Source: a virus. From it: DNA of 64,000 bases. Made by a program: the position numbers and the translations under genes. The stretch covers positions 1 through 64,000 of the IMG/VR virus record IMGVR_UViG_3300034104_003784; one strand, written 5' to 3'. The notes beneath the pieces were generated by a model. The model saw nothing but the letters and a program-made list of their open reading frames with translations, had not been told where the DNA came from and made no database searches. Of the stretch, positions 9,728 to 55,724 are shown piece by piece. Each line of letters begins with the position of its first letter. Position 1 is the first letter of the stretch.

Positions 9728-9985
9728 ATGAAAAACGGATTAAAAGGAGTTACAGATGCTACAGTATTTTGTAAGTCAATGAAAAAAGGTGGACCTGCAC
9801 CAATGATAAGATCAATGAAAAGCTATGAAGTTGGTGGTATAACAGATATGTCATCATCTGCAGATAGTGATTGTACTTATGAGATGGTAGGATATCCACC
9901 AAAAAAAGTAAAAAAATGTCCTGGTAATAAAATGTCAAGAAGAAAATATAATAGAAGTAGAAGAGTTCCAGGAATGAGAAACTAA
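9728..9985 (+). CDS. Small basic protein with K-x-G-G motifs
   Basis: 85 residues, rich in K, R, M and S. It carries MKKGGPAPM (about residues 18-26) and SYEVGGITD (about 32-40), the double-glycine signature also seen in the small basic cluster at 21850-24104 and in the giant cargo proteins. The C-terminus, KMSRRKYNRSRRVPGMRN, is strongly cationic and could bind DNA. No hydrophobic segment. It is the last gene before a strong terminator. A virion-internal nucleic-acid-binding role is inferred from composition only. Confidence 0.5.
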   Translation: MKNGLKGVTDATVFCKSMKKGGPAPMIRSMKSYEVGGITDMSSSADSDCTYEMVGYPPKKVKKCPGNKMSRRKYNRSRRVPGMRN

Positions 9986-21849: not shown

Positions 21850-22161
21850 ATGGCAACAGAACCTAAATGTCCAATGGGAATGTCTTGGGATCCTTCATCA
21901 AAAAAATGTGTGAAACCTGGAACTCCTGATACACCATTAGACAAATTAAAAAAAGAAAAAGAAAGAATGCTTAAAACTAAATTCAAAACTGGTGGTATGG
22001 TAAATGCTAATGCTAACCTAAAAGCAACAGCAACTGCTGGATCTAAAGGTGTTAAAGCTGGAGTTAATCCTAAAGCTGCTGCATCTACTACAGCTAAGAA
22101 ACCTTCTAAGCCAAGAAGTAAAGCTCCTAAGAAAGCTAAACCAGTAAAAACTAATGGCTAA
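21850..22161 (+). CDS. Small lysine/alanine-rich protein with a K-T-G-G motif
   Basis: 103 residues. The N-terminus, CPMGMSWDPSSKKCVKPGTP, has two cysteines spaced like a small metal or disulfide loop. It is followed by a lysine-rich helix with FKTGGMVNANANLKATATAG and a very basic tail (KKPSKPRSKAPKKAKPVKTNG). The tail resembles histone-like or condensing peptides. It is the first member of a run of small basic genes up to 24104. Its stop overlaps the next short gene. Confidence 0.5.
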   Translation: MATEPKCPMGMSWDPSSKKCVKPGTPDTPLDKLKKEKERMLKTKFKTGGMVNANANLKATATAGSKGVKAGVNPKAAASTTAKKPSKPRSKAPKKAKPVKTNG

Positions 22162-22309
22162 AGAATTGATAAAAAGAAAAGACGGTAGTTATTCCCAGAG
22201 AGGTCTCTGGGATAACATCCGTGCTGCTAAGGGTTCTGGTAAGAAACCTACTAAGGAAATGCTTAAGCAGGAAAAGAAAATTAAAGCAACTACTAAAAAG
22301 AAAAAGTAA
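22154..22309 (+). CDS. Very small basic protein with RGLWDNIRA motif
   Basis: 51 residues, starting at ATG 22154 (overlapping the previous stop by 8 bases) and ending at TAA 22307-22309, which overlaps the next ATG. The sequence is MAKELIKRKDGSYSQRGLWD followed by NIRAAKGSGKKPTKEMLKQ and a poly-lysine end. The R-G-L-W-D-N-I-R-A phrase followed by K-x-P-T/A is a recurring motif in tiny phage proteins from many environments. Its role is unknown. The frame fills the gap between two packed genes exactly, which supports that it is real. Confidence 0.65.
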   Translation: MAKELIKRKDGSYSQRGLWDNIRAAKGSGKKPTKEMLKQEKKIKATTKKKK

Positions 22310-22536
22310 TGGCAATTAAAAAAACAACAACTAGAAAAGCACCTGCAAAGAAATCATCTTCACTTGGTATTTCTATTTCAGGACCTGCAAAGGCAGAAAT
22401 GAGAAAATGGGAAATTGAATCTGACTTGAATGCATTAAAAAGAGCAGAGGAAATTAGAAAGGATGCTAAAAGAATGAGAGATGTGCAAAATCTTGCTAAA
22501 GAACAAATGAATGTTTTAAAAAACTTCAGTAAGTAA
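22309..22536 (+). CDS. Small basic coiled-coil protein
   Basis: 75 residues: a lysine/threonine-rich head (IKKTTTRKAPAKKSSSLGIS) and a long charged helix (AKAEMRKWEIESDLNALKRA, EEIRKDAKRMRDVQNLAKEQ). It is coupled to both neighbours by overlap or two-base spacing. No known domain. The composition suits an internal capsid or DNA-associated protein, inferred only from its neighbourhood. Confidence 0.5.
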   Translation: MAIKKTTTRKAPAKKSSSLGISISGPAKAEMRKWEIESDLNALKRAEEIRKDAKRMRDVQNLAKEQMNVLKNFSK

Positions 22537-22538
22537 TT

Positions 22539-22820
22539 ATGGCAAAGTCTCCAGCATGGCAAAGAAAAGAAGGTAAGAATTCAGAAGGAGGTCTTAATGC
22601 TAAAGGAGTGGCTTCTTATAGAGCGGCTAATCCTGGTAGTAAACTTAAGACAGCTGTAACTACAAAACCTTCTAAACTTGATCCAGATAGTAAGTCTGCT
22701 AAAAGAAGAAAATCTTTTTGTGCTAGGATGAGTGGGATGAAGAAAAAACTAACAAGCTCAAAGACAGCTAATGATCCTGATTCAAGGATTAATAAGTCTT
22801 TAAGAAAATGGAACTGTTAA
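22539..22820 (+). CDS. DUF6321-type small basic phage protein
   Basis: 93 residues. The order PAWQRKEGKNSEGGLNAKGV, ASYRAANPGSKLKTAV, RRKSFCARMSGMKKKLT and the ending INKSLRKWNC is the signature of a widespread small phage protein family (DUF6321 type), also known from marine phages. Its function has not been described as far as I know. The conserved cysteines (in SFCARM and the final C) and many lysines suggest nucleic-acid contact. It lies in the small basic gene run. Confidence 0.75.
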   Translation: MAKSPAWQRKEGKNSEGGLNAKGVASYRAANPGSKLKTAVTTKPSKLDPDSKSAKRRKSFCARMSGMKKKLTSSKTANDPDSRINKSLRKWNC

Positions 22821-22830
22821 TTTATATATT

Positions 22831-23175
22831 ATGAAATCAATGATTAAAAAAACTGTTAAACCAGTTAAAAAAATGAAAGAAGGTGGTGCAAAAAAATGTC
22901 CACCTGGATATTGTCCTGCTGGTGGGGCAGGTGCAGGTGGTGGTTGTGTATATTGTGGTGGTGCAAAGTGGGCTGGAAGAATTCTTAGTGCTGGTTTTAC
23001 TGCTTTAGGTAATAAAGTATTTAAGGATGCTTCAAAAAAATCTGCAGAAAAAGCTGCTGCTAAAAAAGCAGAAGAAGCTGCTCAGAATACACCTGCCGCA
23101 AAATTTACAAAAGGTCTTGAGAATAAATTAAAAACTCAAAAAAGAGGTGGTGTTGTTAAATCTAAAAAGAAATAA
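22831..23175 (+). CDS. Small basic protein with K-E-G-G and K-R-G-G motifs and a Cys/Gly cluster
   Basis: 114 residues. KKMKEGGAKKCPPGYCPAGG (about 14-33) continues into a Gly-rich stretch and CVYCGGAKW, giving four closely spaced cysteines that could bind a metal. A helical middle, SKKSAEKAAAKKAEEAAQN, follows, then TQKRGGVVKSKKK at the end. K-x-G-G therefore occurs at both ends, as in other proteins here. No enzyme motif. It is spaced three bases from the next gene. Confidence 0.5.
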   Translation: MKSMIKKTVKPVKKMKEGGAKKCPPGYCPAGGAGAGGGCVYCGGAKWAGRILSAGFTALGNKVFKDASKKSAEKAAAKKAEEAAQNTPAAKFTKGLENKLKTQKRGGVVKSKKK

Positions 23176-23177
23176 TC

Positions 23178-23402
23178 ATGAAAAAGTTAGGTTGCGCTAA
23201 ATGTGGTGGTGCCATGAAAAAAATGAAAAATGGTGGACAAACTATTGTTGGTATGCCTGGCTATAATGCTACTATTAGACCAATGCAAATGAAAAGTGGT
23301 GGTGTTACAAAAAATGCTAAGTTAGCTGCAGTAGCTAAACCTAAAAATAAAATTACAAGAGCTGATGTTCTTACAAGAATACTTAAGAAGAAAAAAGGTT
23401 AG
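23178..23402 (+). CDS. Small basic protein with K-N-G-G and K-S-G-G motifs
   Basis: 74 residues. It begins MKKLGCAKCGGAMKKMKNGG with a C-x-x-C-G-G pair, then has MPGYNATIRPMQMKSGGV and a basic C-terminal helix (ITRADVLTRILKKKKG). It combines a C-x-x-C pair with two double-glycine tags. It looks like a shortened relative of the preceding protein (shared K-K-M-K-x-G-G and C-x-x-C-G-G), perhaps an ancient duplication. Function unknown. Confidence 0.5.
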   Translation: MKKLGCAKCGGAMKKMKNGGQTIVGMPGYNATIRPMQMKSGGVTKNAKLAAVAKPKNKITRADVLTRILKKKKG

Positions 23403-23404
23403 TT

Positions 23405-23809
23405 ATGGGTTTAAAAGATTCTGATAAGCCTAAGAAGAAGAAAATATACAAACAAGTATTTATTTCTCCTGACCGTAACTATAAAAGAAAATATGTTGGT
23501 TATGATGATGGCTCAGAAAAATCTAAAGAAACTAGAACTGTTAGAGGTATGATTAAAGGGGTTCCAAAAAAGAATCCCTTATCAAGACCTCAGATGGATC
23601 CTGATAAACTTGAGCAATTGTTAACACCAGTACAACCAAGTAATGAGTTGACTATGAAGAAAAAAGGTGGAGCAGTAGATAAGAAGTGGATACAGAAAGC
23701 AGTTAACCCTAAACATAAAGGTTACTGTACTCCAATGTCAAAACCTACATGCACACCCAAAAGAAAAGCTCTTGCTAGAACATTTAAAAAAATGGCTAAA
23801 AATAAATAA
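23405..23809 (+). CDS. Small basic protein with 'WIQKAVNPKHKGYCTPM' domain
   Basis: 134 residues. The C-terminal domain, KKWIQKAVNPKHKGYCTPM then KPTCTPKRKALARTFKKMAK, is a small basic motif seen in many phages: a W-I-Q-K-A start, then G-x-C/L-x-x, then K-R-K-A-L-A-x-T-F-K-K. It is preceded by the tag MKKKGGAVD. The N-terminal half is charged (KKKKIYKQVFISPDRNYKRK). The two cysteines and the high lysine content could support metal or DNA binding. Its role in the virion is unknown. Confidence 0.6.
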   Translation: MGLKDSDKPKKKKIYKQVFISPDRNYKRKYVGYDDGSEKSKETRTVRGMIKGVPKKNPLSRPQMDPDKLEQLLTPVQPSNELTMKKKGGAVDKKWIQKAVNPKHKGYCTPMSKPTCTPKRKALARTFKKMAKNK

Positions 23810-23810
23810 T

Positions 23811-24104
23811 ATGAAAAAGACTAATAAAGAAAATCCATTAACTTTTTTTAGAAAAGCTAATGAAGCTAGAGCAAAATTGGTTAAGAAATATATGGGAGGA
23901 CCAGGCAATGAAGTTGATCCTTATAGTGCATATAGTGAATCTGGTCCTAAAGAAGAAAAAGCTCAAGCAGATTATGATCTTGATAACAAAAGTAAAACAA
24001 AAGGTTATTCTAATGTTGCAGCTAGAAAACAATGGGATACTGGAACAGTTGCACCATATGCACCTATTAAGAAAAAAGGTGGTACTGTAAAAAGAAAAAA
24101 ATAA
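23811..24104 (+). CDS. Small protein with C-terminal K-K-G-G tag
   Basis: The likely start is ATG 23811, two bases after the previous stop, giving 97 residues; the frame itself extends back into the previous gene. The sequence has a helical, basic front (NPLTFFRKANEARAKLVKKY), MGGPGNEVDPYSAYSESGPK, and a C-terminus YAPIKKKGGTVKRKK that closely matches the end of the protein at 22831 (KRGGVVKSKKK). It is the last of the run of small basic genes before the ring-type protein. Confidence 0.5.
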   Translation: MKKTNKENPLTFFRKANEARAKLVKKYMGGPGNEVDPYSAYSESGPKEEKAQADYDLDNKSKTKGYSNVAARKQWDTGTVAPYAPIKKKGGTVKRKK

Positions 24105-40000: not shown

Positions 40001-42436
40001 CAATCTCTTATGACATTAGGTTATGCTATTAGAACGCATAATCCAGCAGCAATGAATAGTACTTTTACAGGAAATGGAAAAGTTAGTTGGACTGAAAAAG
40101 GAAAAGGAAGAAACTTTATAAATAAAATTGCAAGTCACTATGTTGCAATTAAATATAGAAAAGAAAATCAATATGGTCAACTAGAACAAATACAACAAGT
40201 TGTAGCTACACCATGTGAACAAAAATTAGATTTTATTTCGCTAACTGGACCAAATACTATTGCCACATCAAATTATGGTACTCTATGTGGAGTAAATGAT
40301 TTTACACAGAAATCTACATCATCACCTGTATTTTTTGGAGGAGATACTTATGTAAATAGATTTACAGAAAAGAATATAATGAACTTCTTTTTTGATTGGC
40401 TTTACAATGTTCCGGATGAAACAGAATGGAATTATTTTATAAATCAAATGATTCCTGAACCTAAGTTTCAAGTAAATAGTCAACCATGGGATATAAGTGA
40501 TTTTACCTTAAATAATTTACTAACTTGGTTTTCTAATAACCCTGATTATGGAGATGGTTTAGTACCATCTAGTTATTATGATATGGATAATAGAAATTAT
40601 GCATATAATGTTAATACGTGGTTTCCAGGTTATCCAGGATTTTTAGCTGTTAAAAATTCATACTTTTATACTTCAGCAAATGGTATTAGAGATTTCTTTG
40701 TTGAGTCTGAAGTAATTACAGATTTTAGAGATGTTGGTACATTTACTTGGCAAAGACCTTATAGTAAATATAAGTATACAGATCTACCATCATTATTTGA
40801 TTCAAATCCTGATATACTAGCTAGAGGTAATTTTTATGCTTATGATTATTCATTAAGTGCATCAAGATTTATATTCAATCAATACTTTACACAAGGTTAT
40901 TTACAAGGTACAACATATAATCCAAATGTTGCAGAGTTATGTTATACATCATATCCAAATAGAATTATATATTCATTAAAACAACAAGAGAATCAGATTA
41001 TAGACGGATGGCTAACATACCTTCCTCTAAATAGAGTAGACTTTAAAAGTACTCTAAGCTCAGTTAAAAACTTTGCTAAGACAGGTATGTTTATAACATT
41101 TGAAAATGATAGTCCTCTTGTTTTTCAAGGTACTGATACTTTACAATTAGATACAAGTGGTACTGCAGTTACCGTAGGTGATCAAAACTTATTTTCAAGA
41201 CCTCCTCAAAATGTTGTTGTTGCTGAAAAACCATATGAGTATGGTTCATCACAAAATAAATATGGTGTAGTATCAACTCCGGCTGGACTTTTTTATATCT
41301 CACAGAACCAAGGTAAAATATTTTCATATGCTGAAGGTTTAAAAGAAATATCTCAAACAGGAATGAAATGGTGGTTTAGTGAATTTTTACCATTCAAACT
41401 TCTTGAAGATTTTCCAAAATACCCACATACAGATAATCCTGTAGCTGGTATTGGTTGTTCAGCAAGTTATGATAATGATAATAGTATTTTATACTTTTCT
41501 AAAAAAGATTATAAATTAAAAGATGAATATAAAGGATTAGTAACTTATGATAATGTAAATGATAACTTTTTAATTAAAACTCAGAATGGTGGTGTATCAA
41601 CAATTCTTAAAGCTAAGATTGGTGATAAAAGATATTTTGAAGATGCTTCATGGACAGTTAGTTATGATCCAAAAATGCAGTACTGGTTATCATTTCATGA
41701 TTGGCATCCTAACTTTTATGTGCCAAGTAAAGGATCATTCTTTACTATAAAAGATAATAGTATTTGGAAACATAGTGTTAATTGTAATGATTACTGTAAT
41801 TTCTATGGGGTGCAATATCCTTTTGAAGTTGAGTTACCGGTGGTAACTGCTCAAGTAGTAAATACTATTAAAAGTTTAGAATACTATTTAGAGGCATATA
41901 GAAGGGACCGTAACATATGTGTGGATCAGTATCATGTACTAGATTATAATTTTGATCAAGCTATAGTATTTAATTCTGAACAAGCATCCGGATACCTTAA
42001 CTTAAATCTTTATCCTAAAAATGACATACCATTATCATTACAGTTTCCAAGATTAAATACTAATCAAGCAAGTTATGACATCCTTTACTCTAAAGAGGAA
42101 AACAAATACAGAATAAATCAATTCTGGGATATAACAAAAGATAGAGGTGAGTTTCCAATTGGATCAGGATATCCTCCTGGACAAGGTCCTTATTTACCAG
42201 CTCCAGAATCTACAGTGTTATTAGGAAACTATTCAGATGAAAATATATGGGTCACATCAGTTAATGGTTATGTAAAAATATTAAATCCTTTGAATTTAGA
42301 TTATACAAAACCTTTATTAGAAAGAAAGAAATTTAGACATTATATTAATTTCATCAAGCTTATAAAAAATGATTCAAGAGATACAAATATGATCTTGAAA
42401 ATTGTTAATACTAAAACTCAAATGTCCCCAAGGTAA
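37025..42436 (+). CDS. Giant tail stabilisation ('muzzle') type protein
   Basis: 1,803 residues. The start, NSFIKGLNKDSDPLFVQEGM then WTHARNAVNNTAEGDLGTLS then NEESN, is the hallmark opening of stabilisation proteins in crAss-like phages, related in role to P22 gp10. The rest is aromatic- and asparagine-rich, with propeller-like beta segments (YAVAIAYTKDRYRVTDYFSS; KYGVVSTPAGLFYISQNQGK). One stretch, about 740-870, is hydrophobic (LALANGIIDALLNALG...), possibly an inserted helical domain. The protein would form the distal tail opening through which cargo and DNA leave. Among the longest genes in the window; the stop overlaps the next start. Confidence 0.75.
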   Translation: MAKRNQQDTSQQNTNSFIKGLNKDSDPLFVQEGMWTHARNAVNNTAEGDLGTLSNEESNALCGLAGQTMNAFKKYIIGAIHLFSDKWIIYTVGYDIQDTKPLMSEIGLFEGDICNYRPIVQDRCLNFNKLHLITGASKLLNDCTWQVYWADNLNPDRYMNIGDPKTWPEDNYVWIGGSSTTNGNLYSNESGVTILWPNIPWEEKCEVDGSGPTVCKICTPVKPGFLDCNRIRLATLVKTPCLDINLSNQPGTIDNGSYAVAIAYTKDRYRVTDYFSSTYTQPISNAINFKGSLEITVEADEENFDEFELAVIRFIDQNFSARIVGYYSTRIKTIILDQISESTPAISTKELLLRSPVVEKSRQMTEVMDYLLRVGPTSKFDFNYQPLANLIRTQWVEIEYPETYYVDGGKNTSYLRDEVYSFFIRWVYDTGDKSASYHIPGRPPRNYTYNGTVYNEIDPFSNIAGITLPGNTKLFESINTASVTAGSINGLETLPDGGVVIARGDMGYWQSSEKYPDFQSDVWNSSSQCWTLTTNPDYDLCGKPIRHHKFPDQNTSYLTNHFIRKSSGYYIRLMGVEFSNIILPKDNDGNDIPGIVGYEILRGSRHGNKTILAKGIINNFRDYNLRGSAAENDVIGLYANYPYNCIVPELNNLTNATGLGSFDYLYNDPYITKRNNNNQKENQNIPQDIISFHSPDTSFVNPYLNTTELKIYGVLRGEAEQFFIEPSKHPRFKFLTNKIILFALANGIIDALLNALGEIKINYPAGNFTQPYGLAWTWNPAVGNSTTGQAMNNLGVIAANSAANGLDAALATYSPIADLFTPGDTLAGFFQTAQSTLSGGSDTFTLPTYEKTYTGKQMLGPIINGFLNTLVVGGDLWYYFIKGTQTAVDVMYAIAKKRQYALEQVGYGEYYLFDPHDATKPKRFVMASGQYVDDQVQILPEYINNATGLPVKYRINNIKRPKLVVLRTTKWDGSGDIEGPHFILESTGYSTDQSLMTLGYAIRTHNPAAMNSTFTGNGKVSWTEKGKGRNFINKIASHYVAIKYRKENQYGQLEQIQQVVATPCEQKLDFISLTGPNTIATSNYGTLCGVNDFTQKSTSSPVFFGGDTYVNRFTEKNIMNFFFDWLYNVPDETEWNYFINQMIPEPKFQVNSQPWDISDFTLNNLLTWFSNNPDYGDGLVPSSYYDMDNRNYAYNVNTWFPGYPGFLAVKNSYFYTSANGIRDFFVESEVITDFRDVGTFTWQRPYSKYKYTDLPSLFDSNPDILARGNFYAYDYSLSASRFIFNQYFTQGYLQGTTYNPNVAELCYTSYPNRIIYSLKQQENQIIDGWLTYLPLNRVDFKSTLSSVKNFAKTGMFITFENDSPLVFQGTDTLQLDTSGTAVTVGDQNLFSRPPQNVVVAEKPYEYGSSQNKYGVVSTPAGLFYISQNQGKIFSYAEGLKEISQTGMKWWFSEFLPFKLLEDFPKYPHTDNPVAGIGCSASYDNDNSILYFSKKDYKLKDEYKGLVTYDNVNDNFLIKTQNGGVSTILKAKIGDKRYFEDASWTVSYDPKMQYWLSFHDWHPNFYVPSKGSFFTIKDNSIWKHSVNCNDYCNFYGVQYPFEVELPVVTAQVVNTIKSLEYYLEAYRRDRNICVDQYHVLDYNFDQAIVFNSEQASGYLNLNLYPKNDIPLSLQFPRLNTNQASYDILYSKEENKYRINQFWDITKDRGEFPIGSGYPPGQGPYLPAPESTVLLGNYSDENIWVTSVNGYVKILNPLNLDYTKPLLERKKFRHYINFIKLIKNDSRDTNMILKIVNTKTQMSPR

Positions 42437-45400
42437 TGTATAATAAAAAATTTTTTCTTCAAGCACTTAATGATTTAGGCAAGAAGGAACCAGAAGCTAA
42501 AAAAAAAGATTCAGACTTAGATAAGCCTCAGATGAAAAAAGGAGGTAGTAAAAAGTTTTCTAGTAATCTTCAAGCTACAAATAGATTGTTTGCAAAAAAT
42601 CCTTTGCTTAAAAAAAAGAATTACAAGAAGAAAATATATGATCCAACATCCATGTACTTTGATAATGGTGGTGAAAAGGATGGTATGACTGGTATGATGA
42701 AAGCTAGACTAGCTTATGCTAATGAGTTTGGAAATCCTGCTGCAAAAAGAATGATTAACCTACCTGATAATCCATATCAATTTGAAAATGGAAATACAGG
42801 TACACACTATATGGCAAGTATAGATAACTATGCTGTTCCTCAAATTCAAGATGAAAATGGTCAGTTAATGTTAGGTGACTATGGTCCAGAATCTAATGAA
42901 GCCATGAGATTTGATTCAGATGAAGATGCTGCTTATTTTGCAGAACATTATAAAGATGTTTCTCCAGGTTTTATAGAAGCAGAACTTACTAAAGATCAAA
43001 TAAGAAAATATGTTGAAGGTGGTTATATAGTTGAAGAGATAGATGATCCTTCTATACCTTCTTTAAATAGATTTATAGACGGTGGTTCAAAAGATAAAAA
43101 ATCTAAAAAATTAAGAAGAAATAAAAATGAAAAACCAGTAACTCAAAATGAATCTATTGAAATTTTAAATCCTTCAGAAGAACCTTTTGATTTACCAAAA
43201 ACTGAAACAGGAGAACTTTATTATGAACCTATAACAACTAAAGATCTTACAGATCAAGAAATAGATGATATATATGCATATAATGAAGAACAAGATAAAC
43301 TAATAAAAGAACAAGAAAGATTACAAGCAATTGAAACGGCTAAGGTAAATGAGCCTAAATATTATCAAGAAGGTTTAGAGTTTGTTGAAGGTTGGCATAA
43401 TTCACCTATGTATAATCAAATGGTATTGAATAGTTTTCGTGGTAATCAAAAAAATGCAGACTATTTAACTAGTGTAAGAAAAAAGAATTTAGCAGATTTA
43501 CCAGGTTTAAATATACAAGAAAAAGATACAGAAAGTGATACAACTGGTGGATCAGGTACTGCCGGATGGTCTTTTAATTCTACAGGTTTAGTTGAAGTAT
43601 TTCCAGGAGGATATGAATATGGTCCATCATTATATGTACATGAATTAACACACTCAGGTGATAGACCTAGAGAGTTATATAAATCTAGTCACCCCGCATA
43701 TAATACTGGTGTACAACTTTCTAATGCATCACCTGAATTAATAAATATGGCAGCTGGTACACAAGGTAGTTGGAATGTTAATTCTGATGGTACAATACAA
43801 AACTATCCAGATTGGATGTTATACAAAGATCCAAGATTTCCACAAGATTCCCAAGTATGGCATGATAGAGTAATACCATCATCTGATTCAATGTATATTA
43901 CTACACATAGAGGTTCTAATTGGAAAGATAATGAAGATTATAAAATAGCTCAAAAAGAAGGAAGGTATTTACCAAAAGGTGAAGAGCATTGGAAAAATCA
44001 AATGATTGAGTGGGGTGACAATCCTGAAGATCCTGAATTTAATACAAAATTAAAAGAATGGGTAGATTGGGATACTGAACTGGCAAAAAATAGAAAGAAA
44101 AAAGCACCAGAAAGTTGGAAATCTTTTGCCCATGATTATGTATCATCACCTCATGAAGTTAGAGCAAGACTTGCTGAAATTAGACACAGTGCAAAAAAAG
44201 AAGGTGTATATGATCCATTTACTGAACAGATAACTCCTGAAATATTTCAAAATTATATAAACAAAGAAAGAGATTCTGAAAATTGGCAACCAATGAAACC
44301 AATTGAAGAGTTAAGAAGAGATTTCAATGATGAAGAGATTCTTTGGATGCTACAAAATATTTCTAAAAATAAACCTCAACAAGAAGGTGATGAGAATATA
44401 CCACAGTATTCTAAAGTAGGTGGTGCTATATCTACATTGAATAAATTTGTAGGAGGTGGTACAATTTCTGAACAATGGGAAAACATTACAGGTACTCCAT
44501 GGTCTCAAGCTAAAAAGAAAGGATTAACAGATGGTAGTTATACTAAAAACATTGAACTACATAAAAGATTATTAGCTGGTGAATTTGGTGAACCAAAAAC
44601 TTCTGTTGCTAAAGATGAGAATGATGATAAGAGATATAATAAAATGGTTGGTGATCTAGTTGATAAAGGTTACAGTTTAGACCAACTAGTTAGAGAAAGG
44701 ATAGGTACCAGAGAAGGTTTGATTTATAGATTTCCAGAACTATTTGCAAATAAGAAAAGTCAAAGCAAACCTAGTCAACCTACTAAAAGATTATCTGCAA
44801 AATATGCAGCCGGTCCTGAAAAACCTAGTTCATCTTCTAATTTAATGACAGGAGCTATTTGGAATACAAAAACATATGAAAGACCAAAGCCTCAAAAAAC
44901 AACTCCTAAAAAAGAAACACCAAAAAAACAAAAACCAAAAGAAACAACTTTTGGTTTAAAAAATCCTATAACAGGAGAATTAATGTCATTTGATCCAAAA
45001 GCATATAATGTTGCTGCACCAGTAGTACAAACTAGTAATGCACCTAAAGCAAATAAAAGTGATCTTAATCCTATGCTAGTTAATATGATGAAAGGTAACA
45101 TTTATGAACAGTCTAATATACCTGCACCATCAATAACTAGAAAACCATCTTCTCAACCTATATCAAATAATGCAGCAAGTACATTTGCACAAGGTCAGAA
45201 TATTAAAAAAGTTCAAGCTCAAAATAGAATGAACAGTTCTGGAAATTTAAATCTACCTATAGTAGAACCTAAATCAAATGTAAGATTAAAAGATTGGAAA
45301 GATACTGATTTAGGTCAATCATTAAATTACTTTACTAAAGGTTCAGATAATCCTCCTGTATATAACTTAGTTAATCCTGAATCACTAAATGAAAATCCTT

Positions 45401-46188
45401 ATAAAAATATTCAAGGGCAGGGTGTTAATGATAAAGATGTTCTAAATAGACAGCTCAATGATTATACAAGATATAGACTATTCCCGGAGAGAGGTCAGGA
45501 TATAATGAATAGAACAGATGTTAAAAGAAACAGAGACTCTGAATTATTCTTTGCAGATCATGCAGGAGCTAACTCTGTAATTATTGATATTGGTTCAGGT
45601 TTAGGAAACTCTAATCCTGCTTTAGCTGGTGTATCTACATATGAACTTGCAAGTAATCCAAATATTAAAAAGAAAAATATTAAAGTAATTGCTACAGATA
45701 TACCATCAGAAATTAAAACATTCAAGAAACATGGGAAATCAGCATTACCATTAGATGTAGAATCTATACCAATGTCATTTGATTATGATATAGCAAATAT
45801 GCTTAACAAAAGAAAATTAGGTGATGTAAATACAGTATATTTAAGATCTGCAAATAGTATAGACTTATTAATGAGTCCTGCTGAAATGCAAACTCATTTT
45901 AAAAAGGTATCACAAAACTTATATGATAAAGAAGTTTTTTATGTCTTTAATAATGCTATACTAAAAAAACCACCATATAATACTGAATGGTTTAAAATAG
46001 GAAATATAAATAATGCTGCTTATAATCATCAAACACCTGAATGGGAAGAAAATCCAGATAGAGATCCATATGAACTATTATCTGATTATAAAAAGGGCGG
46101 TGTAGTAAATTATGAATTAGGTGATCAAGTAGATGAAGCTACTAAAAACTATTTAGAAAGTTTAGGTTATACATTTGAAGAAATTTAA
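42436..46188 (+). CDS. Multi-unit cargo protein with zincin motif and SAM-methyltransferase-like domain
   Basis: 1,250 residues. Residues 1-204 form a first unit ending in LTKDQIRKYVEGGYIVEEID. It is followed by the head IPSLNRFIDGG (207-217), opening a second unit that contains the zinc-protease motif HELTH (402-406; context YVHELTHSGDRPRE). A further head, ISTLNKFVGGG (665-675), opens a third unit. Lysine/proline-rich linkers (about 770-850) lead to a methyltransferase-like domain with VIIDIGSGLGNS (SAM motif I, from 1048) and IKVIATDIP (about 1082). The end is YKKGGVVNYEL, then NYLESLGYTFEEI. The layout suits packaged, possibly processed, virion cargo (a 'polyvalent protein'). Catalytic activity is not shown; a third zinc ligand was not identified. 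Confidence 0.6.
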   Translation: MYNKKFFLQALNDLGKKEPEAKKKDSDLDKPQMKKGGSKKFSSNLQATNRLFAKNPLLKKKNYKKKIYDPTSMYFDNGGEKDGMTGMMKARLAYANEFGNPAAKRMINLPDNPYQFENGNTGTHYMASIDNYAVPQIQDENGQLMLGDYGPESNEAMRFDSDEDAAYFAEHYKDVSPGFIEAELTKDQIRKYVEGGYIVEEIDDPSIPSLNRFIDGGSKDKKSKKLRRNKNEKPVTQNESIEILNPSEEPFDLPKTETGELYYEPITTKDLTDQEIDDIYAYNEEQDKLIKEQERLQAIETAKVNEPKYYQEGLEFVEGWHNSPMYNQMVLNSFRGNQKNADYLTSVRKKNLADLPGLNIQEKDTESDTTGGSGTAGWSFNSTGLVEVFPGGYEYGPSLYVHELTHSGDRPRELYKSSHPAYNTGVQLSNASPELINMAAGTQGSWNVNSDGTIQNYPDWMLYKDPRFPQDSQVWHDRVIPSSDSMYITTHRGSNWKDNEDYKIAQKEGRYLPKGEEHWKNQMIEWGDNPEDPEFNTKLKEWVDWDTELAKNRKKKAPESWKSFAHDYVSSPHEVRARLAEIRHSAKKEGVYDPFTEQITPEIFQNYINKERDSENWQPMKPIEELRRDFNDEEILWMLQNISKNKPQQEGDENIPQYSKVGGAISTLNKFVGGGTISEQWENITGTPWSQAKKKGLTDGSYTKNIELHKRLLAGEFGEPKTSVAKDENDDKRYNKMVGDLVDKGYSLDQLVRERIGTREGLIYRFPELFANKKSQSKPSQPTKRLSAKYAAGPEKPSSSSNLMTGAIWNTKTYERPKPQKTTPKKETPKKQKPKETTFGLKNPITGELMSFDPKAYNVAAPVVQTSNAPKANKSDLNPMLVNMMKGNIYEQSNIPAPSITRKPSSQPISNNAASTFAQGQNIKKVQAQNRMNSSGNLNLPIVEPKSNVRLKDWKDTDLGQSLNYFTKGSDNPPVYNLVNPESLNENPYKNIQGQGVNDKDVLNRQLNDYTRYRLFPERGQDIMNRTDVKRNRDSELFFADHAGANSVIIDIGSGLGNSNPALAGVSTYELASNPNIKKKNIKVIATDIPSEIKTFKKHGKSALPLDVESIPMSFDYDIANMLNKRKLGDVNTVYLRSANSIDLLMSPAEMQTHFKKVSQNLYDKEVFYVFNNAILKKPPYNTEWFKIGNINNAAYNHQTPEWEENPDRDPYELLSDYKKGGVVNYELGDQVDEATKNYLESLGYTFEEI
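43054..43086 (+). repeat. Head peptide copy (IPSLNRFIDGG)
   Basis: Residues 207-217 of the 42436 protein, three residues after the tail-type peptide. Compare IPSLNKFAKGG at the N-terminus of the 46191 protein and ISTLNKFVGGG at 44428-44460. Confidence 0.6.
44428..44460 (+). repeat. Head peptide copy (ISTLNKFVGGG)
   Basis: Residues 665-675 of the 42436 protein, directly after KVGG. It marks the inferred start of the third unit. Confidence 0.6.
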
Positions 46189-46190
46189 TT

Positions 46191-48809
46191 ATGAAAAAGT
46201 ATAGAATAACAAGTATACCATCATTAAATAAATTTGCAAAAGGGGGTGATAAAAAAAGTTGTCCTACTGGAACTTATTGGAACGGAACTAAATGTACTAA
46301 GTTATATACATTAAAAAATGATAAAAAATATATTGATGGTGTAGCTGCTTGGGACATGCATGTTACAAATAATGAAGTACGTAATTTAATAACTCCAGAA
46401 TACAATGATCAAATAAAAGATAGATTATATAGTGGTAAATGGGGATTTGATCCAGAATCAGGAGCTTTAATTAGACTAGATAAAATTCAACCACAATCAG
46501 TAACCAAACTAGATGATAAAACTAAAGCATCAAGAGAAAAAGAAAAAAAACAACAGGAAGCACTGAGAAATAAATGGGAGTCTGAAGATACATATAGACA
46601 ATCAATTATAGATGCAGGATTTGATCCAGCAACTTTTGGTAAAGCTAAAGGTACTAATGTAATTACAGGTGAACCTATATATGCATCTAGCAAAGAAGAG
46701 GCTGATAGAATAAATCAAGAGGCAATCAATCAAGCTGCTATAGAAGGAAATGCTGCAGTAGTTAATAATCCAGTATTTAAAGCTGCTGCTTACATGACTC
46801 CGGTTGGAATGGCAATAGGAGCTATGGAAGGTGCAGCAAGATTAGCTCCTGATGTATATGATTTTGCTAAAGATCCATCTTGGAGTGGTGCAGGACAAAT
46901 AGGAATGGATGTTTTACAAACAGCACCATTTGCAGGAGCAGCTATAAAAAATGCTTATAAAATAAATCCGTGGGCATTTAAAGAAGATCCAAACAAATTT
47001 TATAGACAGATTGGTAATAAAGGTTTAGAAGATGCATTAAATACAGGAGTTATTAAAAGTGCTGACCAAGCAACATATCCAAGACCTTATTTTGTTGAAG
47101 GTAAAGATATATCAATGTTAGAACAAACTGGTTCTGGTGCACATGGTAGACCAACTGTTATGTTTGAAACATCAGGTGTAAATAAAGAAGGTATGCCATT
47201 TGTATCACCAGCTAATGCATCTGGTGAATATACACCATGGATAGCAGACATGGCTGAAGTACCTGTATCTGAAGGAAGATTATTAAAACAACATTGGTTA
47301 AAAGGATATAAAGAAGTACCAACTGAATTACCAGGTTCTCCTAATACATCTATAACTAATAGATTAAAGCAATTTTTTGATAGACCTCCTGGACCACTCA
47401 TGTTAGGTATGCCTACTGGTAGTAGTGGTAATATGGTTAAGAAAAACATGAATTACTATAAGCAACTATTAGATAGTTATGATGGTAAAAAAATGTCTAT
47501 TAGTGATAGAAAGTTTTATAACAGTTTAATTGAGACAGGTAAAAAACAAGATGGTATGGTTACTGAAGCTCAATTTAATGAACTTAAAAGACTTGAGACA
47601 GGTAATTTTGATTTTGGTAAAAGAGGTTATAATAAAGAATCACTTATTCAAGTTCCTAATACGGGTGTTGTACCACCACCTAAACAAGCAGGTTTTATTA
47701 ATTTTAAAGGAGCTTTTCAAAAATATCCAAAAGGTCCTTTAACAGAAGAAGAAATTATTGCATATAAAAATTCACCACAGTATAAAGAATGGACCAAACA
47801 ACATGAAGAGTTAGTAAATAAATATGGAGATAGTTGGACATCACCTAACTTTATGGAAGAAAATTTACAAAAAGCTATTGCTACAGGTGACAGAACTCAA
47901 GTAAATCCAATAATTCATGGAGGAAGAAACTGGAATGCTACTGATTATACTATTGCCGGTTTAGCAGGATTAGCTTATCCTGGAGCTGCTGCAGTTTTTG
48001 GAACAGCCTTTTCACCACCACCAGTTAAAAGTAAAGTTTTAAAAACTGCTGGAATTACTGGTGTGCCTGGAGGTTTAAGTTCTAAAGATACAATTATTGA
48101 TATAACTAATGCTCCTATGGATTTTGCTAAAGTTAATCAGACAAAAGATGGTAAAATTATTATTGGAGGTGAATTTATAGAAAATGCTAATAATAGTGTT
48201 AGAACAGCTAAGGATTGGTTAAATGCTAATGATACTTATTCTGATAAAAAATACCCATCTAAAAGTATTCAATCTTTTTATGGTGTAGAGAATGGTAAAT
48301 TTAAAGTAGGTAAGGCAAGTGATTTTGATCCAAATACTGAAATAGTACCAAGAAGATTTGGAGCTAAGAATATAAGTAAAGCTGTAATGAATGATGGAGA
48401 AATGAGAATTATTGATAAGAATGGAGATCCTATTTATCAGAATACTCCTAACACTGGTAAGTTTATATTGTATTCACCATCTACTAAAAAAGCTCAGTTT
48501 ACTTATATAAACTCTGGTAAAAGTGGTGTGGCTAAAGTCAATGACTTTTTAAAGAAAAATAAAGATGCTCAGTATATTCATTTAGATAATGGTAGGTATG
48601 AGTATTATGGGTTAAATCCAGAAGGTCTTACTAAACAAGACTTTGAAAGTTATTATCATCAAGATTTAGGAAGAGAAGGAACTCCTGGATATAATTTAAT
48701 AATTAAAAAAGAAGGTGGAGCTACTAATAACTATATAGAACTTGACATACCTAAAAGTAAAATAAAAGAATATATAGATCAAGGTTACATAGTAGAAGAA
48801 TTAGATTAA
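46191..48809 (+). CDS. Cargo protein with shared head and tail peptides and possible ADP-ribosyltransferase-like domain
   Basis: 872 residues. The N-terminus ITSIPSLNKFAKGGDKKSC is the head peptide. A C-x(n)-C loop follows (CPTGTYWNGTKC). Residues about 194-258 hold two Gly/Ala-rich hydrophobic helices (YMTPVGMAIGAMEGAARLAP; GMDVLQTAPFAGAAIKNAYK), as in toxin or ejection proteins. Residues about 270-390 (FYRQIGNKGLEDALNTGVIK, then YPRPYFVEG, then PVSEGRLLKQHWLKGYKEVP) loosely resemble ADP-ribosyltransferase toxin folds, but catalytic residues cannot be assigned. The C-terminus, IKKEGG then IPKSKIKEYIDQGYIVEELD, is the tail peptide. Probably a packaged effector or ejection protein. Confidence 0.55.
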   Translation: MKKYRITSIPSLNKFAKGGDKKSCPTGTYWNGTKCTKLYTLKNDKKYIDGVAAWDMHVTNNEVRNLITPEYNDQIKDRLYSGKWGFDPESGALIRLDKIQPQSVTKLDDKTKASREKEKKQQEALRNKWESEDTYRQSIIDAGFDPATFGKAKGTNVITGEPIYASSKEEADRINQEAINQAAIEGNAAVVNNPVFKAAAYMTPVGMAIGAMEGAARLAPDVYDFAKDPSWSGAGQIGMDVLQTAPFAGAAIKNAYKINPWAFKEDPNKFYRQIGNKGLEDALNTGVIKSADQATYPRPYFVEGKDISMLEQTGSGAHGRPTVMFETSGVNKEGMPFVSPANASGEYTPWIADMAEVPVSEGRLLKQHWLKGYKEVPTELPGSPNTSITNRLKQFFDRPPGPLMLGMPTGSSGNMVKKNMNYYKQLLDSYDGKKMSISDRKFYNSLIETGKKQDGMVTEAQFNELKRLETGNFDFGKRGYNKESLIQVPNTGVVPPPKQAGFINFKGAFQKYPKGPLTEEEIIAYKNSPQYKEWTKQHEELVNKYGDSWTSPNFMEENLQKAIATGDRTQVNPIIHGGRNWNATDYTIAGLAGLAYPGAAAVFGTAFSPPPVKSKVLKTAGITGVPGGLSSKDTIIDITNAPMDFAKVNQTKDGKIIIGGEFIENANNSVRTAKDWLNANDTYSDKKYPSKSIQSFYGVENGKFKVGKASDFDPNTEIVPRRFGAKNISKAVMNDGEMRIIDKNGDPIYQNTPNTGKFILYSPSTKKAQFTYINSGKSGVAKVNDFLKKNKDAQYIHLDNGRYEYYGLNPEGLTKQDFESYYHQDLGREGTPGYNLIIKKEGGATNNYIELDIPKSKIKEYIDQGYIVEELD

Positions 48810-48837
48810 ACTTAGTAAGTTTATCAATTAAATTAAA

Positions 48838-48855
48838 ATTTAGTATATTAGTATA
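48838..48855 (+). promoter_or_regulatory. Candidate phage promoter motif, copy 6
   Basis: ATTTAGTATATTAGTATA lies 29 bases after the stop at 48809 and 12 bases before the ATG at 48868. It matches the TTTdGTATATTA core of the other copies. It would give the last cargo genes an extra transcript. Confidence 0.5.
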
Positions 48856-48867
48856 TAATGCATTATT

Positions 48868-51800
48868 ATGAAAGTTAGAATTTACAAAGCTGGCGGAAGT
48901 ACTGGTAAGTTTATTAGCAAACTAAACAAGTTTACTGGTTTACCAAAAGCACGGTATGGGATGCAGATGAAAATGAATGAGTATGACATTGAGGAAACTA
49001 TAATGAATGAGCTCGGTGCTAATAAAGACAACTCAGATATTATTGACACTCTACAAAATGAATATGACTTAGATCCATTAGAAGCTTTAGATAAGATTGA
49101 AGAAGTTAGAAGTTTTATCATGGATCAAACTCTTGACACTGGTGAAAATATAATCAATCAAGAAACTGAAGATCAAGAAGTAGAACCTGTAAAAAGAGAA
49201 CCTTTATATAACATAAATGAACCTTGGGTAAGTGAGAATGATCCTTATGCAGATTATGAAGAAGAAGATGAAGATACAGAAGCTGAAGATACTGAAGAGG
49301 AAGTAACTGCAGAGGATGAAGAGTTAGATAAAGAAAAAAAAGGAGGAACTGTGAATAAAAGAAAATTTGTAAAAAATATTGTAAAAGGTTTAAGAAAAGC
49401 TAGTGAAGGCCTTGAACAAGATCAATCAAATCAATCCTCTACTCTAGATAGCACAATAGATGGTAGACAAGCATTTGTTAATGCATTTAGAAGAGGTGTA
49501 AAAGATTTAGGAAATGAGGGTATTGCTAAAAAATTATTTACCACAATGAATAATTTAAAGCAACAATCTGGAATACCTATGGGTCAAGATGGTATGCAAG
49601 TACAAACGGGAGACCCTGAAGCGGGTGAACATCATCTTAAAGCTTATTCTGATACAGTATCAAATATATTTAAACAACCTATGAATCAAATACACGGTGC
49701 TGGTTTTGAAAATATACCAGAAGCAAGAAGAGGTAGAGAAATGAAAAGAGCTCAAAAAGATTTCCAAAATATGTTTGGAGATGTAGCTGCTGGTTATTTC
49801 GGTGTCCCAGGAATGCCTAACTATTTACAAGTTATTAGTCCAAATATTATACAAAATCCTCAAGCATCTGGTCAAGGTACAGGTCAAACAACACAAGGTC
49901 AAACAGGACCTTTGATTGATTTAACATATAAAAAAGGACCATGGTGGACAGGAAAAAGAGAATGGACTGCTAAAGGAGTTCCTATGAGTATGTTTGGAAG
50001 TCCTTCTTATGGTTATATGCCGGGAAGTTATCCGGGTGGTTATAGTTCATCTTGGAGTACATCAAGAAGTTATCCTGGTGAAATCATAAGAACTAAATCT
50101 AGAGTAATAAATAATGCAGCAGATCCTGCAAAAAATAATAATGTTACTCTTAATAATAATGCTAATAGTACTAAATCATATCCTGGTTATATGGAATTAA
50201 ATCCTGCTCCTGCTGGAACAGAAATGGTTTATGATGCACAAGGTAATGAAGTAGAAGCTATCTCACCAGATGAAGCTGCAAGAAGAAAAGCTGAAACTTC
50301 TCAGTATCCATGGATGAAAGGTTCTGTAATTAACCCTGGAGAATTTAATGCAACTGCGGATCCAAATGCTGGAGTAATTAGAGAATTTCCTGAAGAACAA
50401 GTAGATTATTTAACAGGTCTATGGACACCTCAAGATGCACAAGTTGATGCTTTAGATCCTAATGCTGCTTCTCCTGATAATACTGATCCTAATCTTTATG
50501 ATTCTGAATTTAAATCTAGATTTCCTAATCCAGATGAAGAAGTATTATATGAACTTATAAAAAATAATCCAGCTATAATGGATGCTCCTGGTATTGAAGA
50601 AGAATATTTAAAACTAGGATACTCATTAGATAGTTGGAATAAAGCTAAACAAAGATTTATTTCAGGTAAAGAATTTGGGGGACCTGTGGCTAATCCTCAG
50701 ATGGATCCTTATGGTAATCTTCAGAAGTTTGTCTATGGAGGTAATGAAATGCCGATATCTCCAATTGTTGCATATGACAATGCATATGCTGATGACTCTA
50801 AAAATGTAATGGATCCTTATTTTAGGAATGGTGGTTTATATAGATTTGCTGGTCCTAATGATAGTCAAGTAAATACAGCAAATACTAATCCTGGAGCAAC
50901 TACTTGGAAAGATCTTACAGAAGATGAGTATAAAAAAAGACTTGAAACAGAAAAGAAAACTTGGGAAGCTGACTGGCTTAAAAAACAAAATGAAATAAAT
51001 AACCAAAATAAAACTACTACTCAAACACAAAATACTACACAAGGTGGAGGATCATATGCATATCCAACTGCTCCATCTGTTGGACAACAGTTATTAGATA
51101 TGTTTAACCCAATAAAAAAAGATTTTAGATGGGCAAGACAAATTGATTTTCCTAGAGATGCTAAAGGAAATATAGTTAAAGTTCCTGGAGGATATATCCC
51201 AGGACAATCAGGTCAACCACAACCGGGACAACCAAGACAAGGTTCAACAGCGTCTGGTCCTGCACCAGGTTATATGCCTAGTGAATGGAAATATGAAAAA
51301 GGTCCATGGTGGTCTGGTAAAAAAACATTAACAGTTAAAAATAGTTGGTTTGATCCTAACAATCCTAATGCAACTGTAACAACGCAACCAAATGCTAATG
51401 CAACAACAACTACTAATACTGCAAATACAAATACAGCAAATACTAATACTAATACAAGTAATTGGCATGCACCAATGGTATTACCAGGTGATGAAAATAA
51501 AGGAGCTACTAATACCGCAACAACCGCATCTGATGCAAGTGCAACTAGTTCTACAGCACCAGAACAACCAAGAAAAACACAAGCAGAAAGATACGGATTT
51601 GATCAAGAAACATGGGAGAACATGAGTTGGAGAGATCAGACTGATGCAATGAATGCAATTGAAGATCAAACTCCAGCTCCTACAAGACCAATAACAGTAG
51701 GTGCTGGTAATAATGCTTTACAAGGTACAACAGGAAATAAAGGTGCTGTTAATGCTAATCCAGCAACTGGAACATCTAATTCAGAAACTAATTTACAACC

Positions 51801-53208
51801 TTCTCAGTTTTGGCAGAATTCGCAATCTTTTTCTAATACTCCTGATTTATCAAATGCAAATCCGTCACAAAATAAAATGACATTTGCTGAAGCTGAAAAT
51901 TTATTAGCAGGTATTCCTGGTATGCCAGGGTATAGATCTCCACAAGCAATTGCAAAAGAAAATGCAAACTTAATAGAGCAAGGTCAAATTGCACCTAGAC
52001 CAGGGGCATCACCTGATGCTGCAATGAATCAAAATGTTGGAAATGAATTCAATCAGGCTACAGGTAATAATAGTATTTATCCTAATCAAACTGACTTAAA
52101 AAGATTTACAGAAGGTTTGTATGAAAATCCTGGTAGTTTACCTGCAAGAGGTATGCAAGAGATTCCTACTCAGCAACCAGAAATGGCAAGAAATTTTCAA
52201 GAATATTATGATCCTTGGGAAGGTGCAGCTACCAATGATGATATGAATTTGATGGGTACTATGGATGGTATGTCAGAAGGTTCTTATAGAGATAAACAAG
52301 TAGCTGACAAAAAAGCTTATGATATTCAACAAGCTAAAATTGCAGAACAACAAAGAATGGCTGAAGCTCAAAGACAACAACAATTACAGCAACAAAGAAA
52401 CAGTAATGGTTTTGGTATGAGTGGTGCAGGTGTACAAGAAATTGCAGGTAGAGTACAAAATACAAAGGATCTTGGAAATAGAGAACTTGTAGCTGCAGGT
52501 AATGTATATAAAATGTGGGAAAATGAACCTAACAAAAAACAATATGGGTCATTTGATAACTGGGCAAAACAAAAAGGCTATAGTAATCTTGTACAAAAAG
52601 AAGGTGGTTATGTACCAGCCTATATGGCTTATGGAGGTTATATGCCTTCATTTGATCCAGGTGGGCAATTTAGCGGGTCAGGACCTTTTGATCCTAATGC
52701 AGGTGGTGTTACAAATATTGGTGCTGGTCCGTGTACAGAAGAACAAGTGCTAAATGCAAGACCGGGTGATATATGTTATAATGAAAATTATACTAAACAA
52801 GTTCAAGGAACACCACAAGATTTTACTACAAAGTATGAAATTGAAACTGCAAGAACACTTAGACCAAAAGCAATTGGTAATCTTAAACAATTAGGATCAG
52901 GACTTTTAATTGGTGGAGGAAATAGAAGAAAAAATCAATATGCTCAAAATTGGATGGGTGATTTAACTACTTCTGATGATAGAGTAAATCCTACACAAAC
53001 AGATGTAGGTGGCGGATATGAAGAACAAGGTAAAGAAGGTTCAAAAGGAGCTGGTGAAGGTTCAACTGCTTTTATTGGTAATGTAGGTGAGTCAGCATTT
53101 TTTAGAAGAGGTGGGCAATCTCAATATAGGAAAGGTGGAGTATATGATCTTACTCAAGAAGAGATAGGAAAAATACTTGCTGCTGGTGGTCAAATAAAAT
53201 TTATATAA
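48868..53208 (+). CDS. Giant low-complexity virion protein with head and tail peptides
   Basis: 1,446 residues. The start, MKVRIYKAGG then KFISKLNKFTGLPKARYG, holds the S-x-L-N-K-F head. An acidic stretch follows (about 100-155, EEEDEDTEAEDTEEE). A conserved-looking helical segment lies near 245-320 (AYSDTVSNIFKQPMNQIHGA, RRGREMKRAQKDFQNMFGDV). A large part is low complexity (N/T/Q/P-rich) with an internal duplication, YKKGPWWTGK (354-363) and YEKGPWWSGK (809-818). Many GG tags occur (EFGGPV, YGGNEMP, RNGGLYRF, KEGGYVP, YGGYMP, RRGGQ, RKGGVY). The end, LTQEEIGKILAAGGQIKFI, resembles the tails of the two upstream proteins. A packaged structural or carrier role is inferred. Confidence 0.55.
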   Translation: MKVRIYKAGGSTGKFISKLNKFTGLPKARYGMQMKMNEYDIEETIMNELGANKDNSDIIDTLQNEYDLDPLEALDKIEEVRSFIMDQTLDTGENIINQETEDQEVEPVKREPLYNINEPWVSENDPYADYEEEDEDTEAEDTEEEVTAEDEELDKEKKGGTVNKRKFVKNIVKGLRKASEGLEQDQSNQSSTLDSTIDGRQAFVNAFRRGVKDLGNEGIAKKLFTTMNNLKQQSGIPMGQDGMQVQTGDPEAGEHHLKAYSDTVSNIFKQPMNQIHGAGFENIPEARRGREMKRAQKDFQNMFGDVAAGYFGVPGMPNYLQVISPNIIQNPQASGQGTGQTTQGQTGPLIDLTYKKGPWWTGKREWTAKGVPMSMFGSPSYGYMPGSYPGGYSSSWSTSRSYPGEIIRTKSRVINNAADPAKNNNVTLNNNANSTKSYPGYMELNPAPAGTEMVYDAQGNEVEAISPDEAARRKAETSQYPWMKGSVINPGEFNATADPNAGVIREFPEEQVDYLTGLWTPQDAQVDALDPNAASPDNTDPNLYDSEFKSRFPNPDEEVLYELIKNNPAIMDAPGIEEEYLKLGYSLDSWNKAKQRFISGKEFGGPVANPQMDPYGNLQKFVYGGNEMPISPIVAYDNAYADDSKNVMDPYFRNGGLYRFAGPNDSQVNTANTNPGATTWKDLTEDEYKKRLETEKKTWEADWLKKQNEINNQNKTTTQTQNTTQGGGSYAYPTAPSVGQQLLDMFNPIKKDFRWARQIDFPRDAKGNIVKVPGGYIPGQSGQPQPGQPRQGSTASGPAPGYMPSEWKYEKGPWWSGKKTLTVKNSWFDPNNPNATVTTQPNANATTTTNTANTNTANTNTNTSNWHAPMVLPGDENKGATNTATTASDASATSSTAPEQPRKTQAERYGFDQETWENMSWRDQTDAMNAIEDQTPAPTRPITVGAGNNALQGTTGNKGAVNANPATGTSNSETNLQPSQFWQNSQSFSNTPDLSNANPSQNKMTFAEAENLLAGIPGMPGYRSPQAIAKENANLIEQGQIAPRPGASPDAAMNQNVGNEFNQATGNNSIYPNQTDLKRFTEGLYENPGSLPARGMQEIPTQQPEMARNFQEYYDPWEGAATNDDMNLMGTMDGMSEGSYRDKQVADKKAYDIQQAKIAEQQRMAEAQRQQQLQQQRNSNGFGMSGAGVQEIAGRVQNTKDLGNRELVAAGNVYKMWENEPNKKQYGSFDNWAKQKGYSNLVQKEGGYVPAYMAYGGYMPSFDPGGQFSGSGPFDPNAGGVTNIGAGPCTEEQVLNARPGDICYNENYTKQVQGTPQDFTTKYEIETARTLRPKAIGNLKQLGSGLLIGGGNRRKNQYAQNWMGDLTTSDDRVNPTQTDVGGGYEEQGKEGSKGAGEGSTAFIGNVGESAFFRRGGQSQYRKGGVYDLTQEEIGKILAAGGQIKFI
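49927..49974 (+). repeat. Internal repeat 1 of the 48868 protein (YKKGPWWTGK)
   Basis: It encodes YKKGPWWTGKREWTAK. The second copy, at 51292-51339, encodes YEKGPWWSGKKTLTVK; 10 of 16 residues are identical. Confidence 0.65.
51292..51339 (+). repeat. Internal repeat 2 of the 48868 protein (YEKGPWWSGK)
   Basis: Partner of 49927-49974. It lies in the second half of the protein, before the Asn/Thr-rich tract. Confidence 0.65.
51366..51462 (+). repeat. Asn/Thr/Ala low-complexity tract
   Basis: The DNA has many near-repeats of aatact and gcaaat, encoding N-A-T, T-N-T-A-N-T type residues. It probably forms a disordered linker and is prone to slippage. Confidence 0.6.
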
Positions 53209-53212
53209 ACAC

Positions 53213-55669: not shown

Positions 55670-55724
55670 ACTTTCTATGTTTAGTAAACTTAAAAAATTT
55701 TAATAGTTTTATAATTAAAAAATT

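Follow-up and report, generated by a model that had tools for sequence, protein, structure and literature searches.

This locus raises the question of why a short lysine- and glycine-containing signature should recur both in a run of very small basic proteins and in some of the largest proteins of the same phage. The stretch analysed, hereafter the window, comprises the first 64,000 bases of the 107,139-base virus record IMGVR_UViG_3300034104_003784 of IMG/VR. An earlier note, made from the letters alone, had drawn attention to a K-x-G-G signature common to the small basic genes at 21850-24104 and to the giant cargo proteins encoded further along, and had proposed that it marks protease cutting sites. 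We find that the motif is real and is broader than K-x-G-G; as to its function, a tag for binding or packaging is more probable than a site of proteolytic cleavage.

The phage is crAss-like. Its TerL (12773; genes are named here by their first base), portal (14983) and major capsid protein (MCP; 19112) match PHROG families, 35350 and 36012 match the Pfam families CrAss_Ring_2 and CrAss_Ring_1, and 37025 is a muzzle homolog similar to the muzzles of phages Lbo-JY46, phi17:2 and csAssE-Sib; with these homologs standing in crass order, it belongs to the Crassvirales. By its portal, the nearest named relative is Leptolyngbya phage Lbo-JY46 (33% identity), and the company kept by its relatives points to an aquatic lineage. 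TerL, portal, a scaffold-like acidic protein, MCP and a gp33-like protein are followed by eight small basic genes, then by a ring protein, tail genes, the muzzle, five large proteins (42436-59165) and two giant proteins (59155-78742), which are named RNA polymerases (RNAPs) on the strength of their size and their place after the crassvirus cargo genes rather than of a domain match.

All the strings quoted in the earlier note lie in frame, both in the small proteins (KTGG in 21850; KEGG and KRGG in 22831; KNGG and KSGG in 23178; KKGG in 23405, 23811 and 9728) and in the cargo proteins (KKGGVVNYEL in 42436, KEGGAT in 46191, KKGGTV and RKGGVY in 48868, KKGGYT in 53213), and 23178 holds an extra KCGG. 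The signature is indeed widespread in the small block, but five of its eight genes, and not six, carry [KR]xGG: 22539 reads SEGG, and 22154 and 22309 are devoid of GG. The restriction by protein class, which had been noticed by eye, proved stronger than claimed when computed. Across the whole genome there are 21 occurrences of [KR]xGG in the 5,127 residues of the small block and cargo genes 42436-55669 versus 3 in 28,153 residues elsewhere (Fisher p 1e-14), and K or R stands at -2 in 21 of 58 GG pairs of the former versus 3 of 93 in the rest (p 1e-7); these p-values are optimistic because the division into classes was made with the data in view, following the note's observation. Relative to composition, the small block has 8 in 741 residues where 1.4 are expected and the cargo genes 42436-59165 have 14 in 5,532 residues where 4.5 are expected. 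There are none in 8,930 residues of other head and tail proteins, TerL, portal, ring and muzzle included, and none in 6,524 residues of giant RNAP. Nearly all replication genes also lack the motif, the minus-strand module having a single occurrence in 7,323 residues, so that the equal frequency in replication genes envisaged by the note as a refutation was not found.

Such a motif could in principle be a functionless by-product of lysine- and glycine-rich low-complexity repeats and their duplication. Many of the proteins are tandem repeats, and in the window alone the small block, with its GG runs held intact, has 8 [KR]xGG versus 4.5 expected, a borderline excess (p 0.056) that is decided by the relatives. 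From IMG/VR, 80 related records were fetched by their MCP, of which 44 span the interval from MCP to ring protein and provide 306 distinct small proteins. These contain 652 GG (343 expected) and 338 [KR]xGG, as against 90 expected from composition and 218 (standard deviation 13) when GG runs are kept. Their consensus is K-[MYF]-[KQ]-x-G-G-[SATM]-[VT]-K. The signature as first formulated is thus enriched, but too narrow, since the best-defined position is not the K: the strongest preference is for Met at -3 from GG (189 versus 23 expected), followed by Tyr or Phe at -3, then K or Q in position -2, K in position -4, S, A, T or M at +1, V or T at +2 and K at +3. Successive GG pairs are most often 8-9 or 16 residues apart, and the impression that the motif lies near a terminus is borne out: 61 of the 306 proteins have it among their final 14 residues (21 expected). 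The KTGGMVN module of 21850 is found again in many relatives.

The cargo proteins, compared across 13 further genomes, have the same offset-specific pattern without being K-rich. The observed and expected numbers of [MYF]xxGG are 79 and 18 in 48868-like proteins, 44 and 11 in 42436/46191-like proteins and 47 and 10 in 53213-like proteins, whereas the shifted control [MYF]xGG is not enriched in any of the three families, and [MYF]xxGG itself is not enriched in 55725-like proteins (8 observed, 7 expected), RNAPs (3 and 8) or muzzles (10 and 6). Residue -2 of the cargo motif is often Q or A. Both the 42436/46191-like and the 48868-like proteins end in a module of 25-30 residues, roughly phi-x-L-[TS]-xx-[EQ]-I-xx-[YF]-[IL]-xx-G-[YG]-x-[IV]-E-[EY]-[LI]. 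The GG directly before it is invariant in 30 aligned 42436/46191-like copies, most of them only 27-57% identical to the window's copy, and an upstream GG is retained in most of the 36 copies of the 48868-like module. The 53213-like proteins have a different conserved tail, whose GG (residues 798-799 of 53213) is invariant in 12 relatives; the GG of KKGGYT (residue 128) is kept in about half of them and is incidental. An AlphaFold2 model of the 46191 module has one helix (residues 23-31), with a predicted local distance difference test score of 87-90 over the last 20 residues. With this invariance at low identity, the pattern in proteins that are not K-rich and the recurrence of the motif in unrelated phages (see below), a by-product of composition is very improbable.

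By reading protein ends, the same C-terminal module was also found in the cyanobacterial phage Lbo-JY46 (L087, 4020-6044; ending in ...QQGGYNLGEEIDLSPEEVAKLIELGYDFEVV), which thus shares it with the crAss-like lineage. Other searches returned little: tblastn of the module alone gave chance matches only, tblastn of the 48868 protein found no match among phages, PHROG and Pfam scans of the small and cargo proteins yielded only DUF6321, and profile searches of the PDB with profiles A1 (the 53213 family) and A2 gave no credible match. A description of the motif was not found in the literature or family libraries searched. The Pfam KGG stress-induced repeat (PF10685) resembles it in name and in the letters K-G-G only, and the Pfam scan of the small proteins gave no match to it.

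In gut crassviruses the nearest counterpart of the window's cargo is gp45 (cargo protein 1) of phiCrAss001 (PDB 7qog, 7qoi, 7qoj, 7qol, 8ckb), which is likewise encoded after the muzzle, is GG-rich and has a C-terminal KAKGGKVRTKKKK tail. This protein lies inside the virion, where segments 214-245 and 425-552 have been resolved, the latter modelled as a compact domain; its resolved sites are the portal and the tail barrel (PMC10172136). Its homologs have a GG followed by a basic tail in 9 of 10 phages (e.g., KKAKGGKVRTKKKKGLTYG and KKSKGGKLKLKL), DAC15 being the exception, and together contain 37 [MYF]xxGG versus 8.6 expected; gp041 of phi17:2, annotated as a virion structural protein, ends in KLKWGGKKR. 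The 53213 family was tried as a homolog of gp45, but profile similarity was not significant (hhalign probability 0.8%) and homology is hence not claimed. One could view the GG sites as flexible hinges, separating the compact segments of a protein that has to unfold for extrusion through portal and tail. The GG sites of gp45 at 209/263 and 427/562 are indeed close to the boundaries of the resolved segments (PMC10172136), and a GG precedes the C-terminal module of the window's cargo. However, gp45 has 20 GG runs, so that nearness to four boundaries may be chance; moreover, a linker requires neither M/Y/F exactly at -3 nor V/T at +2, and the giant RNAPs, which are ejected too, lack the motif. We therefore regard a hinge as unlikely.

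The protease reading of the earlier note, by which a phage or host enzyme would cut after GG at maturation and free C-terminal peptides or segments, fares less well still. It would account for the C-terminal bias, for the invariant GG immediately before the C-terminal module and for the small residues at +1 in the small proteins, and there is precedent in herpesvirus scaffolds, which lose a C-terminal tail. Gly-Gly sites of the adenovirus and African swine fever virus (ASFV) type, which occur in basic core proteins, have a hydrophobic residue before the GG, at P4 in adenovirus-type sites with GG at P2-P1. The motif described here departs from this adenain/ASFV-type consensus: its hydrophobic residue stands at P5, one step more distant from the GG, and K/Q occupies P4 in its place. 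The residues conserved on both sides of the GG and the discordant +1 position (S/A/T/M in the small class but Y in the cargo) also count against cleavage, as does the location of gp45 GG sites 427, 434 and 447 within the continuous modelled segment 425-552. Cleavage is not mentioned in the main texts of the phiCrAss001 papers. Pfam revealed no capsid-maturation protease in the proteins scanned, which do not include every gene, and the scaffold-like acidic gene between portal and MCP has no Pfam peptidase match. A candidate in the early module, a DUF2201/VWA putative metallopeptidase beside a MoxR-type AAA_3 ATPase, reads as chelatase-like rather than as a capsid protease. Together, these points render cleavage after GG improbable.

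The small block is hypervariable. Relative L001 is 99.7% identical to the window along the 10.4 kb that end at 21857, seven bases inside the first small gene; beyond this the two differ over most of the block, returning to 94.7% at 22539-23294 and to 98.8% in the ring gene. The abrupt divergence at 21857 is in itself a sharp recombination boundary. In csAssE-Sib, from the gut, 4 bp separate the gp33-like gene from the ring gene, which marks the block as a variable insertion; it was not seen in csAssE-Sib or crAss001, the latter differing in this respect from the window's lineage. At the DNA level, the block resembled known phages in the DUF6321 gene only. Two small genes have ratios of nonsynonymous to synonymous polymorphism (pN/pS) of 0.27 and 0.45 (the latter for 22831 against L001), based on few changes but below 1 as real genes would show.

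The lysine content of the small proteins (17-29%) raises the possibility that they coat or condense DNA in the manner of protamine or an AT-hook, with the cargo using the motif to join the DNA. The regular spacing of the GG repeats fits such a role, and lysines of the T4 internal proteins contact packaged DNA (PMC3012670). On the other hand, the strongest constraints, M/Y/F at -3 and V/T/I at +2, do not concern charge, the -2 residue in cargo is often Q or A, and the neighbours 22154, 22309 and 8383 are equally K-rich without the motif. DNA compaction as the function of the motif thus remains doubtful.

The constraint on both sides of the GG, the multivalency, the restriction to small head-region proteins and some cargo proteins, and the GG-basic tail of gp45 argue instead for a binding motif acting in the capsid interior, and this is the explanation we tentatively favour. 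A short linear motif, [M/Y/F]-[K/Q]-x-G-G-x-[V/T/I], in one to seven copies per protein on lysine-rich and presumably disordered head-module proteins and on long cargo proteins, would bind multivalently, either to one shared component (capsid, portal or core) or motif protein to motif protein. Small basic proteins and cargo alike would thereby be gathered and retained in the capsid during assembly, with the lysines additionally touching the packaged DNA. In keeping with this, proteins with [MYF][KQR]xGG are encoded in all 44 loci (on average 2.7 of 7.8 small genes) despite the hypervariability of the block.

Phage T4 provides a precedent: its capsid targeting sequence (CTS) is a single N-terminal sequence that is removed by the prohead protease gp21. 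The diverse internal proteins of T4 have only this CTS in common (PMC3012670). Like T4 IPI-IPIII, the block consists of hypervariable small basic proteins in a head gene cluster that share a short sequence, consistent with packaging and ejection. Unlike the CTS, the motif is internal or C-terminal, with positions scattered over the length of the protein, is repeated and also occurs in giant cargo, and Pfam found no protease that might remove it in the scanned proteins, several genes lying outside the scan. Other observations weigh against the binding explanation. The giant RNAPs lack the motif though packaged in phiCrAss001, and it cannot therefore be a general cargo tag; a classical tag would be terminal, whereas cargo proteins of about 1,000 residues bear the motif at several positions; and the same block also holds small proteins without it. 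Among the gp45 homologs of gut phages, enrichment of the aromatic residue is seen one position further out as well (29 versus 9 expected), making the pattern looser there. Finally, the counts are not independent, being inflated by related sequences; the offset-shifted controls are safer evidence than the raw counts.

The motif also extends to aquatic phages beyond the crAss-like group. A tandem MKxGG DNA pattern matched at least 120 IMG/VR contigs versus 42 for a scrambled control. The first 79 new contigs had no counterpart of TerL, portal, MCP, muzzle or any other query from the window except DUF6321 (PF19846), the family of 22539 (74.1 bits against a curated Pfam cut-off of 28.5), which 30 of the 79 encode. 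Among all the matches listed, DUF6321 is present in 46 of 119 motif contigs versus 6 of 42 controls (p 0.004), and all 37 in-frame motif/DUF6321 pairs lie on the same strand. Small open reading frames in 80 DUF6321-seeded loci, a few of them from the crAss lineage, contain 111 [MYF][KQR]xGG versus 13.5 expected (reordered patterns occur 22 and 7 times), the motif being present in 40 of these loci. Of the 80 loci fetched by MCP, 43 have DUF6321. A triple MKxGG pattern was matched 40 times in 257 Gb of bacterial genome sequence, never with DUF6321 and mostly in secreted Methylobacter-type repeats or by chance. The small motif proteins of different contigs (L357 6456, L375 6284 and L432 6655) share the segment DLxxDGKITxxDILxGRGV, and those of L375 and L432 also NWIxGAIKxPGAFSAKAKAAGMS, which suggests a shared pool of modules.

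DUF6321 is co-located with the motif and at times fused to it or to a near variant (in L059, L416, L411 and L408), yet it is a separate conserved domain of which the motif is not part: the GG of 22539 (NSEGGLNAKG) belongs to the domain and is distinct from the motif, and the four annotated DUF6321 phages inspected lack the motif. The family was found in 523 phage records. The 22539 protein is predicted to be helical, and a fold search found nothing in the PDB and, in a viral library, good scores for DUF6321 proteins only. In phage S-SCSM1, whose virion proteome has been measured (PMC9602691), the DUF6321 protein is labelled a virion protein, and in a Prochlorococcus podovirus it likewise lies between MCP and a tail tubular gene.

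Features of the small block, the cargo region and genes used for comparison (window positions unless a locus is given)
Position	Strand	Feature	Details
21850..22161	+	small basic protein, 103 aa, 22% K	KFKTGGMVN at 21982-22002
22154-22309 and 22309-22536	+	two small basic proteins without motif	no GG; relatives of each also without motif
22539..22820	+	DUF6321 protein (PF19846), 93 aa	Pfam E 1.4e-20
22831..23175	+	small basic protein, 114 aa	KMKEGGAKK at 22873-22893; C-terminal TQKRGGVVK at 23137-23157
23178..23402	+	small basic protein, 74 aa	CAKCGGAMK at 23196-23216; KMKNGGQTI at 23223-23243; QMKSGGVTK at 23289-23309
23405..23809	+	small basic protein, 134 aa	MKKKGGAVD at 23657-23677
23811..24104	+	small basic protein, 97 aa	C-terminal IKKKGGTVK at 24069-24089; tail ...KKKGGTVKRKK
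9728..9985	+	small protein, 85 aa, not in head block	SMKKGGPAP at 9779-9799
42436..46188	+	cargo-region protein, 1250 aa	N-terminal QMKKGGSKK at 42532-42552; SKVGG at 44410-44430
46066-46185	+	C-terminal module of 42436	DYKKGGVVNYELGD...YTFEEI
46191..48809	+	cargo-region protein, 872 aa	C-terminal module KKEGGATNNYIELDIPKSKIKEYIDQGYIVEELD at 48687-48806
48868..53208	+	cargo-region protein, 1446 aa	six [KR]xGG; C-terminal module FFRRGGQSQYRKGGVYDLTQEEIGKILAAGGQIKFI at 53074-53205
53213..55669	+	cargo-region protein, 818 aa	C-terminal KGKFGGQLYANGGYVYVDSWNPF; GG at 55595-55615; KKGGYT at 53585-53605
55725..59165	+	virion-type neighbour protein, 1146 aa	one KxGG; family not enriched; negative comparison
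59155..64000, continues to 66639	+	first giant RNAP-type gene	no [KR]xGG; negative comparison
L083 10127-12488	minus	AAA_3 (MoxR-type) ATPase and DUF2201 VWA/putative metallopeptidase genes	adjoining, early module

Two further genes of the window deserve mention in their own right. The protein encoded at 107-781 matches an arginine-tRNA-protein transferase C-terminal domain (PF04377, E 1.4e-6), which is unusual for a phage, and that at 24809-25327, between the ring gene and the tail genes, is a Dps/starvation-inducible-like protein (phrog_858; PF19174).

It is conceivable, if speculative, that [M/Y/F]-[K/Q]-x-G-G-x-[V/T] is a transferable code for packaging into the capsid interior across unrelated aquatic tailed phages, loading fast-changing injected proteins along with giant cargo, and that DUF6321 acts in this as partner or core component. 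The motif bears on the way in which several megadaltons of cargo enter the capsid and tail of crassviruses. It offers a concrete sequence for mutation or reporter fusion, and a handle by which virion-packaged proteins may be spotted among the thousands of unannotated small genes of phages.

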